Shown here: piece after piece, positions 33,230-63,580 of the stretch
How the letters are laid out: each line of letters begins with the position of its first letter
How positions within the stretch are numbered: the first letter of the stretch is position 1
From: Limnobaculum allomyrinae
GTDB lineage: Bacteria; Pseudomonadota; Gammaproteobacteria; Enterobacterales; Enterobacteriaceae
DNA: 64,000 nt
Assembly (NCBI RefSeq): GCF_016649425.1
Contig: NZ_JADRCR010000009.1
Span: 153,319 to 217,318, forward strand
Direction: 5' to 3'
Position numbers and translations under genes: made by a program
The notes under the pieces: generated by a model
What the model was told of the DNA's origin: nothing
The model's input: only the letters and a program-made list of their open reading frames with translations
The model's database searches: none

Positions 33230-33606
<377 letters not shown>

Positions 33607-33652
33607 TCTTTTAAAACAAGCGGTTGATGTGTTTTCTACCGTATCTCAGATA

Positions 33653-35320
33653 ATGGGATACATGGTGGGATACATCAACCGTTGTTGTTTTAGTCAAAAC
33701 ATTCCTTATACCCTTCAGAGAAATGGGATTTTCTATCTCTATTTTCGCCTGCCTGATAATCGGTTTTTTAAAGCATCATTAGCCTGTGATAGTTTCAGGA
33801 GAGCCAGATTCATAATATCTCGGCTTATATCTTATATTTCATTGGTTAAGCTTGGTAAGATGACCTGTAAACAACTACAGCGGATTGTGGCGGGAATGAG
33901 AAAGCTAACACAACAGGATATTGATGATTATTTGCAGGCGCTTCAGGCAGAGGTCTATGAAAGTGCTGAAGGCATACCAGTAGAAGCCAGAACAACTAAA
34001 TTATCTGGATTAAATCCGCTGACTCTGGATGAAGGTAAAGCTTTTGCTGAGTTTATCAGTGAGCATTTGGAAGCCCCAATCTACAATGGTAGTGAGTCCT
34101 TTACTGAAAATTACCTGACTAAATTTTTCTCTCAGCATTTTGATATTGCAGGTATGGAAAACCAGATTGCATCTGCTGGGATAAAGCATGATATGCAGTT
34201 AATGCAAGTGCAAAAGGCTAGAGTTGCCTTTTTTAATAAGAATCTTGAAGAATATCAGAAGATTGTTGACTCGCTTAAGCCTGCGGTTGTTCCTAATCCG
34301 CTAATTGTGAATTCTCCTGTAAATACTCAGACTGTACCTCAACTTCAAAATAATAATATTCCAACACTGGCTGAGGCTTGGGTTGATTTTGTTAAATACA
34401 AATCTGACTGGACACCGATATATAAAAAAGAGATGGAAGGACAGTTTGTTTTTATTGAGCTGATATTAGGTGCAGATACGCCAGTTACTCAGATCAATAA
34501 ATCTGACATTAAAAATATGCTGGAAGTTGTTGAAAATTTACCTAAAAGAAATAAAAATCCGTACAAAAAAATGAGTGCTCAAGAATGCATTGATTATGAT
34601 GACATTGAAGAGGATGATTTTATAGCGTCAAAGTCTGTTGCAGGGTATTTAAAACTTTGTCAGTCACTATTTTCTACATATTTAACTAATGAAAGAGAGA
34701 TATATACAGTATCACCAACTCATGGTGTGAAATATGACGTTGTTAGTAAGCCTTATGGCGCTTATTCTAAGACCGAAATGAAGAAGTTAGTGACTTACTT
34801 TGTTTCGTTATCTGATTGGAAGAGGTGGGTGTTTCTGTTACTTGCTTATACAGGTGCACGTAGGAAAGAAATAGCTACATTAACCGCCGAAGCTGTTCGT
34901 TTAGATGATGACTCAGGGCGTTATTATTTGATGGTTGAAGATAGTAAGACTGAGGCGGGAACAAGGCAGATTCCACTACATAAAAAGTTAGTTGAACTTG
35001 GATTCTTAGACTTTTCTAAGCCAAAAGACAAAGGATTACTATTTCCTGAAATAACATATAACAATAAAGTTACTAAGGTTTTTCATGATATTAGGGAAAC
35101 ATTAGATATACCTTACCTGAATGATTACAACGAAAGACGAATTGTTCATAGCTTGCGTCATACATTCATTACAGCAGCTCAGGCTAATGTATCTAATACA
35201 GTACTTGTTCAGCAGGTTGTAGGACACGAGCATTCTAATATTGGTCAAACTCAGAGATATACGCATAGATTGACTGTATCTGAATTGTTGTGTGTGGTGG
35301 ATGGGATTGAATGGATTTAA
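33653..35320 (+). CDS. Tyrosine-type site-specific integrase
   Basis: 555 residues from ATG 33653; starts at 33662 or further in are also possible, and the frame is open back into rnpB. The N-terminal part (IPYTLQRNGIFYLYFRLPDN) looks like the DUF6538 domain of island integrases. A SAM-like core-binding region follows (IPTLAEAWVDFVKYKSDW). The catalytic domain has Arg403 (AYTGARRKEIATL), a Lys in DSKTEAGTRQIP, His499 and Arg502 (HSLRHTF), a His in GHEHSN and Tyr536 (QRYTHRL). All key residues are present, so it should be active. It probably recombines the rnpB 3' end. Confidence 0.93.
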   Translation: MGYMVGYINRCCFSQNIPYTLQRNGIFYLYFRLPDNRFFKASLACDSFRRARFIISRLISYISLVKLGKMTCKQLQRIVAGMRKLTQQDIDDYLQALQAEVYESAEGIPVEARTTKLSGLNPLTLDEGKAFAEFISEHLEAPIYNGSESFTENYLTKFFSQHFDIAGMENQIASAGIKHDMQLMQVQKARVAFFNKNLEEYQKIVDSLKPAVVPNPLIVNSPVNTQTVPQLQNNNIPTLAEAWVDFVKYKSDWTPIYKKEMEGQFVFIELILGADTPVTQINKSDIKNMLEVVENLPKRNKNPYKKMSAQECIDYDDIEEDDFIASKSVAGYLKLCQSLFSTYLTNEREIYTVSPTHGVKYDVVSKPYGAYSKTEMKKLVTYFVSLSDWKRWVFLLLAYTGARRKEIATLTAEAVRLDDDSGRYYLMVEDSKTEAGTRQIPLHKKLVELGFLDFSKPKDKGLLFPEITYNNKVTKVFHDIRETLDIPYLNDYNERRIVHSLRHTFITAAQANVSNTVLVQQVVGHEHSNIGQTQRYTHRLTVSELLCVVDGIEWI

Positions 35321-35410: not shown

Positions 35411-36016
35411 ATGGTTGATTACGATGATGGAATTAAAAAAGGCATTTCCTCTCAAACACCGCCCACTGAAATTGCTAGAAAAATGTTTTTCTGTTACCCA
35501 ACGCATTTCTTTATTGATAACTTGGAAATGCAATATGAAATACTTAATGATATAAGTTGCTTTTTTGATGTGCCTATATCTTCAGTGCATATCATTGGTT
35601 CGGCTAAGTTTGGAAAAAGCTATTATAAAAAGAGATTGTTTTCTTTGAAACAATCTGATTTGGATGTGGCTATTATAGATAAAGATTTATTTATTAGTTA
35701 TATGGAGTTAGTAAGTAATTTAACTGATAATTATACAAAAAGACAAATTTTTCCTAGAAATAGAAGTGATTTATCTGTTGCTGATTCATATATTTCTTAT
35801 ATTTCAAAAGGAATGTTTAGACCCGATATGATGCCATATTCTGATGAGCGAACTAAATGGAATAAATATTTCGGAAACTTATCTAATAAATATAGAAATT
35901 ACTTTAAAAATATTAATTGTGGGATATATCTATCAGAGTCATTTTTCGAACTAAAACAAGCGAAATTGATTGAGCACTATAATGATAGCATTACAATTCT
36001 TGAGGGCTTGAAATGA
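35411..36016 (+). CDS. Nucleotidyltransferase-fold protein, first gene of a two-gene module
   Basis: 201 residues. HIIGSAKFGKS (Gly63-Ser64) followed by QSDLDVAIID (Asp83 and Asp85) fits the GS...DxD signature of DNA-polymerase-beta-type nucleotidyltransferases. The gap between the two halves is within the usual range. I cannot find the third acidic residue with certainty. The rest is rich in Tyr, Phe and Asn and matches no family I know. AGGTG lies six bases before ATG 35411. The stop overlaps the next gene (ATGA), so the two products are probably made together. The function is unknown; a role in an anti-phage or toxin-antitoxin pair is inference. Confidence 0.7.
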   Translation: MVDYDDGIKKGISSQTPPTEIARKMFFCYPTHFFIDNLEMQYEILNDISCFFDVPISSVHIIGSAKFGKSYYKKRLFSLKQSDLDVAIIDKDLFISYMELVSNLTDNYTKRQIFPRNRSDLSVADSYISYISKGMFRPDMMPYSDERTKWNKYFGNLSNKYRNYFKNINCGIYLSESFFELKQAKLIEHYNDSITILEGLK

Positions 36017-37098
36017 TTAATAATGTTGACTATAAGGTTAGATCAATATCTCTATTGAATCTTATATCTGATATGAGAGCAGGAAAATTAATTCCTGACG
36101 CATATTTTCAGAGAAATTTGGTTTGGCGTGAAATTCATAAAAAGGAATTTATTGAAACTATTCTTTTAGGTTTTCCATTTCCTCAAATTTTTGTTTCAAA
36201 GGGCAAAGTTGATGTTGCTTCTATGAAAACAACATCTTGTATCATTGATGGGCAGCAAAGAACAAATGCAATATTAGATTTTATAGCAAATAAGTTTTCA
36301 GTAAATGGAAAAACTTATAATGATTTAACGGATGATGAAAAAGCTATATTTTTAAAATATGAAATTGCAGTGATAGAGCTAGACTTAGAAAACGATGATC
36401 TACGCGTTGTTGAAATATTCAAAAGAATTAACAGAACATCTAACTCATTATCTACTATTGAAAGATATGCGTCTGAATATTCAACTGTCGAATTTATGTT
36501 AGTTGCAAAATTATTAACAAATCAAATTGATCTTGATTCCATATCAGATAGCGATAATGATAATTGGACAATAGATCCTAATATACCCGAAGACTTCATA
36601 GCTTGGGCAAAAAAACAGAAAGTAAATAACTTTCCTAAGTTGATTATAGAAAAAGGGATCTATTCATCAAGAGATTTAACCCGAAAAGCCCATTTAATGC
36701 ATGTTCTAAATATGATCGCTACTTATATATATTCATTTTTTAATCGAAATGAAAAATCCTCAGATATGCTGAATGATACATCTGTAAGCTTCAATGAAAA
36801 AGATGAAGTTATTCATATTTTTGAAGAGGCTGCTACATTAATTTTGAAAATGAAATTACCCGTTAAGTCTTATTGGTTAAATAAAGCAAACTTTTTTTCA
36901 CTATTTATTGTTATCGCAAATGTTCTTAAAGCAGGAAAAACGATAGATCTAGATAAATTCAAAAGGGATTTAGGTTTATTTTATGACCAATTACCTGATG
37001 ACTATCGTTTATCTGCTAGTGAAGCTGTTAATAATAAGAAGGAAAGATCGATTAGGGACACTTATTTGAATAAAATTGTATCTAATTCAATTATTTAA
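36013..37098 (+). CDS. DUF262 (GmrS/ParB-like) domain protein, second gene of the module
   Basis: 361 residues. The N-terminal region carries the DUF262 motifs: YFQRNLVWRE (residues 31-40), FPFPQIFVS, IDGQQRTNAILDFI (DGQQRT at 79-84) and IFKRINRTSNSLS. In GmrSD type IV restriction, BrxU and SspE this domain binds or hydrolyses nucleotides and drives a nuclease. Here no C-terminal DUF1524 HNH nuclease is visible; the remaining 200 residues are mostly helical. The partner nucleotidyltransferase gene overlaps by four bases, and a strong terminator closes the unit. Confidence 0.8.
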   Translation: MINNVDYKVRSISLLNLISDMRAGKLIPDAYFQRNLVWREIHKKEFIETILLGFPFPQIFVSKGKVDVASMKTTSCIIDGQQRTNAILDFIANKFSVNGKTYNDLTDDEKAIFLKYEIAVIELDLENDDLRVVEIFKRINRTSNSLSTIERYASEYSTVEFMLVAKLLTNQIDLDSISDSDNDNWTIDPNIPEDFIAWAKKQKVNNFPKLIIEKGIYSSRDLTRKAHLMHVLNMIATYIYSFFNRNEKSSDMLNDTSVSFNEKDEVIHIFEEAATLILKMKLPVKSYWLNKANFFSLFIVIANVLKAGKTIDLDKFKRDLGLFYDQLPDDYRLSASEAVNNKKERSIRDTYLNKIVSNSII

Positions 37099-37108
37099 GT
37101 TTCTACTA

Positions 37109-37148
37109 ACCAATAGAACTAATTATATCTTAGTTCTATTGGTTTTTT
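37109..37148. terminator. Bidirectional terminator between the DUF262 gene and the recombinase gene
   Basis: ACCAATAGAACTAA and TTAGTTCTATTGGT form a perfect 14-bp stem with a seven-base loop, followed by six T on the plus strand. The recombinase stop codon lies within the right arm. Confidence 0.85.
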
Positions 37149-37741
37149 AGTTGTTTTTTTATTCTGTAAACTGTTGCAACCCCACATCCTTCAAGTTTAG
37201 CAATATCCTCAACACTAATATTATTCGCAGCTAGCCGTTTTGTAACTCTTTCATGTAATTCTTCGTTAATACCTCTGCCGCCAATACGCTTACCTTGAGC
37301 TTTAGCTCGTTCCTGACCTTGCCTAATTCTCTCAACTCTCTTCTGTTGATCTAACCGAGCCATTGTAGCCATCAAATCAATAAGCATATTATTGATAACA
37401 TACATGATTTCAGATTCGATTCCTTTCTTGGCTATCTGCTGGTGAGTTGTTGGCATATCCAGAACAACAAGTCTCAACTTCTTATCATTGATTTTAGATT
37501 TTAATGTTTCCCAATCATCCAAAGATAGGCGGCTTAATCGGTCTACAGACTCAACTAGCAAAATGTCATTAGGAAGTGCATCTTCGAGTAGTTGATTAAG
37601 GATAGGGCGATTGAGCATCGTTCCTGTATGGTTTTCTATGTACCACTCAGCAGGAGAATCAGAAATAAACTCTTCCAGAATAGTTTTTGCTCTTTCTGCA
37701 TCTTGTTCTGTAGTACTAGCTCTTAAGTAGCAGCGGAACAT
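37136..37741 (-). CDS. Serine recombinase (resolvase/invertase family)
   Basis: 201 residues. MFRCYLRASTTEQDAERA holds the catalytic Ser, with the following Thr-Thr-Glu-Gln typical of resolvases. ESVDRLSRLSLDDW is the conserved DRLSR block, RIRQGQERAKAQGKRIGGRG is the E-helix junction, and a C-terminal helix-turn-helix ends the protein (ISVEDIAKLEGCGVATVYRI). I chose ATG 37741, which has GTGAGG just upstream on the minus strand, over ATG 37771. It probably acts on the inverted-repeat sites directly upstream, resolving dimers or inverting DNA. Confidence 0.9.
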   Translation of the reverse strand: MFRCYLRASTTEQDAERAKTILEEFISDSPAEWYIENHTGTMLNRPILNQLLEDALPNDILLVESVDRLSRLSLDDWETLKSKINDKKLRLVVLDMPTTHQQIAKKGIESEIMYVINNMLIDLMATMARLDQQKRVERIRQGQERAKAQGKRIGGRGINEELHERVTKRLAANNISVEDIAKLEGCGVATVYRIKKQLKNQ

Positions 37742-37752
37742 GTTAACCTCAC

Positions 37753-37884
37753 TATCATTTAGTTTAATCAATCAATAGCTAAATGATAATTTATCAATTA
37801 GTATTTGTAAATAGGTAAATGATAGTGAAAGGGAGTATTCAGGAAGGTAATTATCATTTGTCATTAGCCTATAGGTAATTGATA
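37753..37884. promoter_or_regulatory. Three-subsite res-like recombination or operator region
   Basis: Six 9-bp half-sites alternate in direction and form three inverted repeats. Subsite 1 is 37753-37788 (TATCATTTA / TAAATGATA), subsite 2 is 37791-37824 (TTATCAATTA / TAAATGATA) and subsite 3 is 37851-37884 (TTATCATTT / TAATTGATA). Each spans 34-36 bp, and the set starts 12 bp upstream of the serine recombinase gene. Tn3-type res sites have the same plan of three dyad subsites next to the resolvase gene. Confidence 0.65.
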
Positions 37885-38465
37885 ATTACTTTAGGGGGAA
37901 CTGTCACTAATATTAAAATTCTGGTTCATGATTTTTTATTAATTGCAAGTTTTTTATCTTGAAATATTGACAATTAGGGCTTTTAATGAAAGAATAACTA
38001 AGCACAGATGTAGAGCTTACATAAGAACCACGAACTAAAAATCAGTTCCTAATACCTCCTGCAATTATTATCTCTTCTGAAGATAGATCTATTAATTGGA
38101 ATAGAGCAGCTCATTTCAGCATCTGTGATGCTCAATGCTCTAATCGATTATGATATTTGCAAAAGATAAAATTTAATGTAATGGGGTATGTTAAAAGCGC
38201 TTAATATCTATACTCTAGAAACTTAAGTACCAACATATGTATTCTAATTTTAATTTAGTTATCTACAAAAATATAAATTCAATAATTTAAAATAACTAAA
38301 TTAAGCTACAAGTATAGCTACTCCTGAGTTTCAATAAAAATAACTCCCCAATTTGCTATTATAATGAAGAGAGATGTCTCTATATCTCATCATACAAGAC
38401 TGCTTAAAGATGAATTATTTTTATATTAATAATATGATTTTAACTGTTCTATTAAAAGAGGGATA
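37885..38465 (+). promoter_or_regulatory. AT-rich leader of the polymerase-like gene, with stem-loops
   Basis: No credible ORF is present. A nested stem-loop lies at 38102-38142 (outer arms TAGAGCA / TGCTCTA, inner arms AGCATC / GATGCT). A perfect 12-bp inverted repeat (TAATTTAGTTAT at 38251-38262, ATAACTAAATTA at 38292-38303) follows. The promoter of the 38466 gene must lie here. Confidence 0.45.
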
Positions 38466-39731
38466 ATGTATAAATTTGAAAAAAGTGTTAAGTATTGCCG
38501 TTCTCTAACTAAAATGATTAGTGATGTTGAAATAAAATTCATAGAAAGATATCAAGATAAACAAAGTTATAAAATAAATAAAAAGAAACTAAGGGTAGTA
38601 ATAAATTATATTCTAGCAAATTGTTTTAATCTTTATCTTAATGGTGAGAGTAAAGGAATAATCTCACTTAATAATAAATTATATGATAGCTATATAGAAA
38701 ATGGTAAAAAGACTAAAAGTGCAGTTTCATTCCGATATTTTTCCAAGGTAAAAGACCTGCTTATTGATGAAGGCTATATCGAAATTCAATGCGGTGAGTT
38801 TGTTCCTAATGAATACTGTGAAAGTTATATAAAATTAACTCAATATATTAAAGATAATTTTAAAAATACCACAGGTACTTCAAGACCAGAATTTACAGAT
38901 AATAGTATAATCTTAAGGAAAAATGGTAAAGATAAAGAGTTTCGTTCAAATAAATATGTAAAAGACGTACTTAATAACATGAATAATTTAAATATTTTAT
39001 TTGGAAAGAATACTGTTTATTATCCAATAAAAGATGTGAATTACGCTTTAAAATTTAATCGAATTTATAATGATAGCTTTGAGTATGGTGGTCGATTCTA
39101 CGAACAACATAGTCAAGTTCAAAGTTTACGGTCATGTGAACGATTGAAGTTGCTGATAAATGAAAATAAAGTAACTGAGGTTGATTTTTGTAGCTTGCAC
39201 ATGGCCTTACTATATGATTTGGCAGAAGAAAATATGCTTAATGGATTTGATCCTTATGAGATAGATCCTTGTCAGTTAGGATTAGTCGATAATCTTCAGA
39301 CAAAGAAACAACTAAGATCATTAGCGAAGCTTGCAATATTAATTGTTATTAATTCAGGTAAAAACTCTAAGCCAGCTATAACATTAAAAAGAAAGTTGGA
39401 AGAAGATAAGAATAAAAACTCATCAGAACAACGATATAGTTTAATTCCTAAAGATATAGATTTAACATCAGTTATAGAAGAAATAAAAAAGAGAAATCCT
39501 AAAGTAAAGAAATTCTTTAATAGTGGAATTGGTTTGGTTCTGCAAAGAAAAGATAGTGATATCGCTAATCAGGTAATACAATATTTTGTTAACAGGGGGA
39601 TTGTTATTATCCCTATCCATGATAGTTTTATTGTAGAAAAGCAATATGAAAATGAACTAATTGAAGTTATGAAAAACTCCTATAAAGAAGTTATGGGTAA
39701 TAATTTAAATTGTAGAGTTGAAGTAAAATAG
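38466..39731 (+). CDS. Putative polymerase-like protein with family A / T7-RNAP-type palm motifs
   Basis: 421 residues, Lys/Asn-rich. Three blocks resemble single-subunit polymerases. VTEVDFCSLHMALLYDL (Asp240) resembles motif A. LRSLAKLAILIVINSG (Arg284, Lys288, Leu292, Asn296, Gly298) keeps the R-x3-K-x3-hydrophobic-x3-Y/N-x-G spacing of motif B, with Asn where Tyr is usual. IIPIHDSFIV (Asp386) resembles motif C, HDS being the T7 RNA polymerase form. YGGRFYEQHSQ (207-217) just before motif A recalls a widespread uncharacterised island protein family. The N-terminal 200 residues match nothing I know, but 86-107 could be a winged helix. Not certain to be catalytic. A large hairpin follows the stop. 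Confidence 0.5.
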   Translation: MYKFEKSVKYCRSLTKMISDVEIKFIERYQDKQSYKINKKKLRVVINYILANCFNLYLNGESKGIISLNNKLYDSYIENGKKTKSAVSFRYFSKVKDLLIDEGYIEIQCGEFVPNEYCESYIKLTQYIKDNFKNTTGTSRPEFTDNSIILRKNGKDKEFRSNKYVKDVLNNMNNLNILFGKNTVYYPIKDVNYALKFNRIYNDSFEYGGRFYEQHSQVQSLRSCERLKLLINENKVTEVDFCSLHMALLYDLAEENMLNGFDPYEIDPCQLGLVDNLQTKKQLRSLAKLAILIVINSGKNSKPAITLKRKLEEDKNKNSSEQRYSLIPKDIDLTSVIEEIKKRNPKVKKFFNSGIGLVLQRKDSDIANQVIQYFVNRGIVIIPIHDSFIVEKQYENELIEVMKNSYKEVMGNNLNCRVEVK

Positions 39732-39736
39732 TAATT

Positions 39737-39790
39737 TCAGGAGAAGAATATTGAGTTAATGAAAATGTTTAACCTGATATCTTCTCCTGA
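39737..39790 (+). terminator. Large stem-loop after the polymerase-like gene
   Basis: TCAGGAGAAGAATAT and ATATCTTCTCCTGA form a stem of about 14 bp with one bulge, six bases after the stop codon. There is no clean T-run. Confidence 0.5.
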
Positions 39791-39890
39791 CTTGATTAAT
39801 TATGCTATTATTTTAATTAATTATTCTATTTTTAATTGTTATTCAATAACTAATTGATAATAGAGTTAATTTATAATTCAACACTATAAA

Positions 39891-39902
39891 ATAACTAAAT
39901 TA
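39891..39902 (+). repeat. Third copy of a 12-bp motif flanking the polymerase-like gene
   Basis: ATAACTAAATTA is identical to 38292-38303 and to the reverse of 38251-38262, so the motif is found on both sides of the 38466-39731 gene and, in my reading, not elsewhere in the island. AT-rich 12-mers can recur by chance. Confidence 0.45.
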
Positions 39903-39986
39903 TGTATCAGTTTAATAGTACATTAAATAATCAATAAATACAGAATAATTGCCTTTCTTTTAGGAGTTATTAATTTAATACCTATT

Positions 39987-40019
39987 AAAACTCTCTACAA
40001 TCAATTTTGAGAGGTTTTT
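39987..40019 (+). terminator. Rho-independent terminator-like hairpin
   Basis: AAAACTCTC and GAGAGGTTTTT flank a loop of 14-15 bases. The T-run follows the stem, so it fits a terminator for plus-strand transcription. Confidence 0.55.
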
Positions 40020-41311: not shown

Positions 41312-41339
41312 GCTTAACGGCCGACTCCACTATCTTTTA
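41312..41339 (+). repeat. attR: right end of the island
   Basis: GCTTAACGGCCGACTCCA then CTATCTTTTA, matching attL at 33586 except for one base. The sequence continues directly into the former rnpB terminator. Confidence 0.88.
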
Positions 41340-41341
41340 TA

Positions 41342-41378
41342 AAGGCACTTTATTTAAAATAAAGTGCCTTTTTCTTTT
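41342..41378 (+). terminator. Displaced native terminator of rnpB
   Basis: AAGGCACTTTATT and AATAAAGTGCCTT form a perfect 13-bp stem followed by TTTCTTTT. It stands three bases from attR with no gene reading into it, where the rnpB terminator would be without the island. Confidence 0.8.
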
Positions 41379-63433: not shown

Positions 63434-63550
63434 ACAAAAACACCTGACGCACACAGACCTCCATGACGGAGTCATTTTTGTCAGGTGTCATCAGCCTTTA
63501 ATATCAGGCGGTTTATAACCGAAAGGTTAAAGGTGGAACGCCATCACCGG
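63434..63550 (-). promoter_or_regulatory. Fluoride riboswitch (crcB motif) with transcription terminator
   Basis: On the minus strand, GGTGATGGCGTTCCACC (63548-63532) is followed by TAACC, AAACCGCC and GGCTGATGACACCTGAC (down to 63480), matching the crcB-motif consensus. ACACCTGAC (63488-63480) can instead pair with GTCAGGTGT (63448-63440), followed by TTTTGTT, to form a terminator. Since this arm is part of the aptamer, bound fluoride should prevent termination and turn crcB on. Confidence 0.9.
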
Positions 63551-63580
63551 TTATTAGTATAGCGAGAAATGAAATGACAT

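Follow-up and report, generated by a model that had tools for sequence, protein, structure and literature searches.

The TV-Pol family was defined in 2008 by Iyer, Abhiman and Aravind, who predicted priming as well as polymerisation for its members and proposed them as the minimal core of the family A polymerases (PMC2579912). In Caudoviricetes (barbaviruses, Vibrio and Aeromonas phages), the divPolA2 proteins (phrog_4756) have been put forward as possibly repair or RNA polymerases (PMC11348598). The passages searched gave no literature link between divPolA2 and TV-Pol, those of PMC11348598 naming TV-Pol once, as background. The only TV-Pol-family member with biochemistry found in the literature is CcPol, of the SCC PolA-SSB primases (CcPol-MP). 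The subject of this work is a gene of Limnobaculum allomyrinae, located in an integrated island of about 7.7 kb with two recombinase genes, whose 421-residue product is almost certainly a family A-type polymerase. The window, that is, the whole stretch of 64,000 nucleotides analysed, comes from contig NZ_JADRCR010000009.1; the assembly has 30 contigs and totals 4.58 Mb. That the protein serves mobile DNA as a primase-polymerase, initiating short strands and elongating them, is given about even chances.

The family itself is already described, as TV-Pol (PMC2579912) and as phage divPolA2 (PMC11348598). Added here are the connection of the phage branch with the recombinase-borne one, a likely winged helix and the signature of the sugar site; the gene ties the phage divPolA2 proteins to the recombinase-borne TV-Pol-type genes of bacterial chromosomes. 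Homology to divPolA2 is near whole-length: the reference protein AUR84708 matches residues 11-418 with 27% identity (E 3.2e-24), and assignment in PHROGs is to phrog_4756 (function not known there; E 5e-75, residues 15-419). Both have a family A palm and a separate N-terminal domain, and lack an exonuclease. However, divPolA2 is encoded by phages that have a regular DNA polymerase next to it, whereas the window gene, since it lies in a chromosomal island with empty sister sites, is a chromosomal homologue and not a divPolA2.

With the TV-Pols, the protein has in common the hairpin Arg (R210), the two palm Asp residues, the fingers Asp (D262) with RxxxK, and a mobile-element setting in which a resolvase or an integrase is encoded nearby, the island having both. 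As a difference, no D5-like helicase was recognised in the island. Moreover, their N-terminal domain was predicted to be all-helical, unlike the winged helix predicted here. The TV-Pol thumb is described as a pair of antiparallel coiled helices preceding the hairpin (PMC2579912); in the models of the window protein, one long helix (residues 163-181) comes immediately ahead of the hairpin, and helices 12-29 and 39-58 are more distant. A founding member, from phage Ma-LMM01 (AB231700), gave no match, although an empty answer from such a search shows nothing.

CcPol is likewise of family A, without exonuclease activity and carried by a recombinase-borne element, but is close to the housekeeping Pol I (PMC10061031). 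It requires the SSB-like (single-stranded DNA-binding protein-like) MP for priming and is accompanied by a helicase and large serine recombinases. Finally, DNA polymerase I (PF00476) and the T7-type RNA polymerases share the palm/fingers core and the motif order with the window protein, which differs in having no Pfam match and no exonuclease, and in His, Leu and Asn taking the place of Glu, Phe and Tyr of the Pol I sugar site.

Polymerase core, motifs and sugar site

A sequence-only reading of the window had described a frame of 421 residues with polymerase-like blocks at D240, 284-298 and D386, and all of these were found at those residues. Its assignment of a polymerase fold is supported by the predicted structure, in which a palm/fingers core resembles Pol I and mitochondrial RNA polymerase, and by the catalytic residues kept in homologues. 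Profile alignment places D240 and D386 onto the two catalytic Asp residues of Pol I. No family was found for the protein by Pfam at E up to 1, DNA_pol_A (PF00476) included; nor was an exonuclease domain, in agreement with the earlier reading. A primase- or transferase-like role, as suggested there, would fit.

Conservation was assessed in 214 sequences of at least 300 residues, 207 of them distinct, and the two catalytic Asp residues are kept in nearly all (Table 1), as is D262 (203/207). In this set D386 is biased, because loci were fetched with a pattern containing HDSF. A second set, of 79 distinct proteins from protein searches and chosen without HDSF, has D240, R284, K288 and D386 throughout and N296 in 77. 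Judged from these alignments, the motif residues are not a chance occurrence. The spacing R-x3-K-x3-L-x3-N-x-G reported for the second block is present and R284, K288 and N296 are conserved, but L292 and G298 are not. At one locus (L038 5683-8606) two TV-Pol genes lie side by side, the first with G and E in place of both catalytic Asp residues; one of these two copies is the sole sequence of the set lacking both.

The sugar site departs from that of Pol I, with H245, L292 and N296 replacing E710, F762 and Y766. The change from Tyr to Asn, previously considered unusual, turned out to be the norm: at residues 245, 292 and 296, 125 of the 207 sequences have H,N,N and another 46 have H,L,N, so that Asn is the rule in the family. 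CcPol, which strongly prefers deoxynucleoside triphosphates, is reported to retain E710 and F762 (PMC7581432). In the phage branch the three positions vary (E,T,Y in AUR84708, which thus has E and Y at the places of H245 and N296; E,I,N in phage 166E36-1; W,M,N in Barba29S; H,M,Y in J2-1), and relaxed sugar choice is therefore a prediction for the window protein and not a fact of the family. If the site does admit ribonucleotides, this would bear on the divergence of RNA and DNA synthesis in the superfamily. A further explanation is that of a small single-subunit DNA-dependent RNA polymerase transcribing genes of the element or of a phage, which we regard as quite unlikely; T7 RNA polymerase carries a Tyr eight residues after the motif B Lys, where the window protein has N296.

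Homologues and their recombinase neighbours

The protein search gave 21 proteins at E <=0.001, among them one in Budviciaceae bacterium CWB-B4 with 95% identity and a pair with about 40%, of which one belongs to Pragia fontium. With a profile as query and the best 7997 candidates scored, at least 78 matches were obtained. By tblastn, 289 phage records were matched (146 of Vibrio, 114 of Rheinheimera, the remainder of Aeromonas and others); a listed record could match at as many as three places. Among 60 relatives, the window genome counted, the gene is present in two.

In a FastTree phylogeny of 141 rows, the window protein, P0001-P0003 and a copy from the sister genome G003 form one starred group of five, all with intact reading frame and catalytic residues. 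This group nests in a starred set of 17 rows (support 98), the others being seven of phages and five viral ones; in a more careful tree of 44 of the 141 rows, the corresponding set of 16 has support 91/90 and is not starred. Proteins of phages, ICP1 included, adjoin the group of five. The G003 gene lies in another chromosomal place (L008 4551-9825), near PRTase-like, DprA-like and AlpA-like genes.

The neighbourhood was surveyed for the best 80 of 175 genome relatives, giving 79 loci. A tyrosine or serine recombinase is encoded within 5 kb in 59 of them, both types in 13 and none in 20; among viral loci, the figure is 6/52. Recombinases fall from 44/298 open reading frames (ORFs) within 1 kb to 1/111 at 6.5-8 kb in the genome loci, and make up 5/246 and 0/98, respectively, in the viral ones. 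Three phage loci and that of the G003 copy have no recombinase within 5 kb. Each of the other gene clusters occurs in at most 12 of 136 loci, as clustered by blastp, which could split divergent helicases. On one contig of the viral collection (L106 1-11114), a unit of about 3.35 kb, encoding a tyrosine recombinase together with a TV-Pol, recurs in near-identical form, and where the units meet there are repeats of about 95-117 nt; this is possibly a minimal two-gene element in tandem.

Proposed role of the polymerase in the element

The preferred reading, that of a primase-polymerase in which a likely winged-helix DNA-binding domain is joined to a predicted minimal family A core, can be put together with the other products of the island. 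Once excision by the tyrosine integrase at the 31-bp repeats of rnpB had taken place, the enzyme would be kept on the DNA of the element by its winged-helix part, and the palm, with D240 and D386 holding two metal ions, would synthesise either a primer or a short strand of DNA. Unwinding and bulk copying would be left to host enzymes, since Pfam recognised no helicase, nor any SSB, among the seven island ORFs. The serine recombinase would have the resolution of multimers as its task, or else would work at the motif cluster that precedes its own gene. The least certain step is the acceptance of ribonucleotides, which the set H245/L292/N296 might allow more easily than in Pol I or CcPol.

The lack of a recognised helicase or primase partner in the island would also suit a gap-filling or repair DNA polymerase, extending existing primers (for instance after DNA damage or around integration) with no priming of its own. 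The repair role proposed for divPolA2 in PMC11348598 points the same way, as does CcPol, which alone is reported to be inactive without a primer and to need MP for priming (PMC7581432). The winged-helix-like domain suggests, however, the recognition of a site. Moreover, strand exchange by tyrosine and serine recombinases requires no synthesis, which also counts against repair, and we consider this explanation a minor prospect, though one to be reckoned with. The primase-polymerase reading has a stronger form, in which a single protein of 421 residues would be a complete initiator-primase, combining a site-picking winged helix, the smallest family A core and a ribonucleotide-accepting His/Asn site, as a start-up module for copying common to phages and recombinase-borne islands without dedicated helicase or SSB; this form appears improbable. 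Because the gene is chromosomal and tractable, and sister genomes offer the empty site, it would allow primase, repair polymerase and RNA polymerase to be distinguished.

Island structure, integration site and other genes

The earlier placement of the gene inside an island proved right: the element is bounded by direct repeats of 31 nt, 29 positions of which are identical, and in the sister genomes G003 and G002 the site is empty, the two flanks sharing exactly 31 bases there. A further genome compared (G004) shows the rnpB match, the right-flank match not being seen. The hairpin following the right repeat would be the displaced rnpB terminator. In a third sister genome (G001), the left repeat is kept with a remnant of about 420 nt, the first ~94 nt of which match the left end of the island. 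In the remnant (L010 reverse strand, ~11183-10762), the junction lies close to 14 nt that are identical to the res-like motif at 37871-37884; a 14-mer in common with the island was seen in 9 of 500 shuffles. The remnant could be a deletion at the site of the serine recombinase.

Table 1. Features of the island and of the polymerase gene (positions in the window; conservation among 207 distinct sequences)
Feature	Position	Strand	Remarks
rnpB (RNase P RNA, RF00010)	33230-33606		
Left att repeat, 3' end of rnpB	33586..33616	+	31-bp direct repeat; empty sites
Tyrosine integrase	33653..35320	+	PF00589 E 1.5e-12; catalytic motifs present
Cargo ORF, 201 aa	35411..36016	+	nucleotidyltransferase-like GS...SDLD motif by eye; no family match
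GmrSD_N (DUF262) cargo protein	36013..37098	+	PF03235 E 4e-19; PADLOC NsnA E 2.6e-22
Serine recombinase, 211 aa, resolvase/invertase type	37136..37771	-	PF00239 E 1.2e-20; HTH_7 E 2.5e-5; phrog_125 E 1.3e-40
Direct and inverted TGATAA/TTATCA motif cluster before serine recombinase	37775..37892	.	possible res-like site
28-nt repeat, left of polymerase gene	38276..38303	+	25/28 identical to 39875-39902
TV-Pol/divPolA2-type polymerase gene	38466..39731	+	ATG start, 421 aa
N-terminal domain			residues 1-190; 10-140 likely winged helix
Polymerase core			residues ~190-421
R210 codon, hairpin Arg of GGR motif	39093..39095	+	207/207; aligned to Pol I TGR
D240 codon, motif A Asp	39183..39185	+	206/207; aligned to Asp of Pol I DYSQIE
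Motif B, R284 to N296	39315..39353	+	R 205, K 207, N 202 of 207; aligned to Pol I R...K...F...Y
D386 codon, motif C Asp (H385-D386-S387-F388)	39621..39623	+	206/207; 79/79 in pattern-free set
28-nt repeat, right of polymerase gene	39875..39902	+	pairs with 38276-38303
Small cargo ORF, 77 aa	40559..40792	-	weak matches at most
Small cargo ORF, 73 aa	40807..41028	-	weak matches at most
Right att repeat	41312..41342	+	31-bp direct repeat; terminator-like hairpin after, 41341-41371

Although the reading frame of the integrase begins at 33563, ahead of the left repeat, the ATG at 33653, inside the island, is the likelier start. The serine recombinase and polymerase genes are divergent, and the TGATAA/TTATCA cluster may function as a res-like site. 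Matches to the integrase (E <=0.001) were found in 31 of 118 genomes, the window genome counted, many of them weak or partial. Of these, four loci were read. A serine recombinase match is present in three and a TV-Pol match in none, and two are located at rnpB; the polymerase is therefore taken as cargo of this integrase family, and the integrase may have the serine recombinase as its usual companion. Integration at the 3' end of rnpB recurs in the family, being seen also in G025 and G128; downstream of these two rnpB-adjacent integrase loci, a flagellin-like gene is found in one and a DUF262 match in the other.

The gene could also be a phage-derived passenger or defence gene, held by chance or interfering with phages that carry such a polymerase. 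The adjoining phage proteins in the tree would agree with this, as would the GmrSD_N cargo protein with its defence-library matches, and the AT-rich flanks (GC content of 26% at 38001-40000, vs ~47% outside the island) and the 28-nt repeats on both sides, which have the look of a nested insertion. The repeat pair outscores all 40 shuffles and hints at a nested unit. Nevertheless, PADLOC gave no match for the polymerase, and the intact frame and catalytic residues throughout the group of five argue against a mere passenger. We know of no defence function of TV-Pols, and this explanation is held to be rather unlikely.

The nucleotidyltransferase-like ORF, which overlaps the GmrSD_N/DUF262 gene (35411-37098), possibly forms with it a two-gene defence module, and was found in none of the 117 other relatives searched. 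Finally, elsewhere in the window, a fluoride riboswitch is found on the reverse strand (63475-63557).
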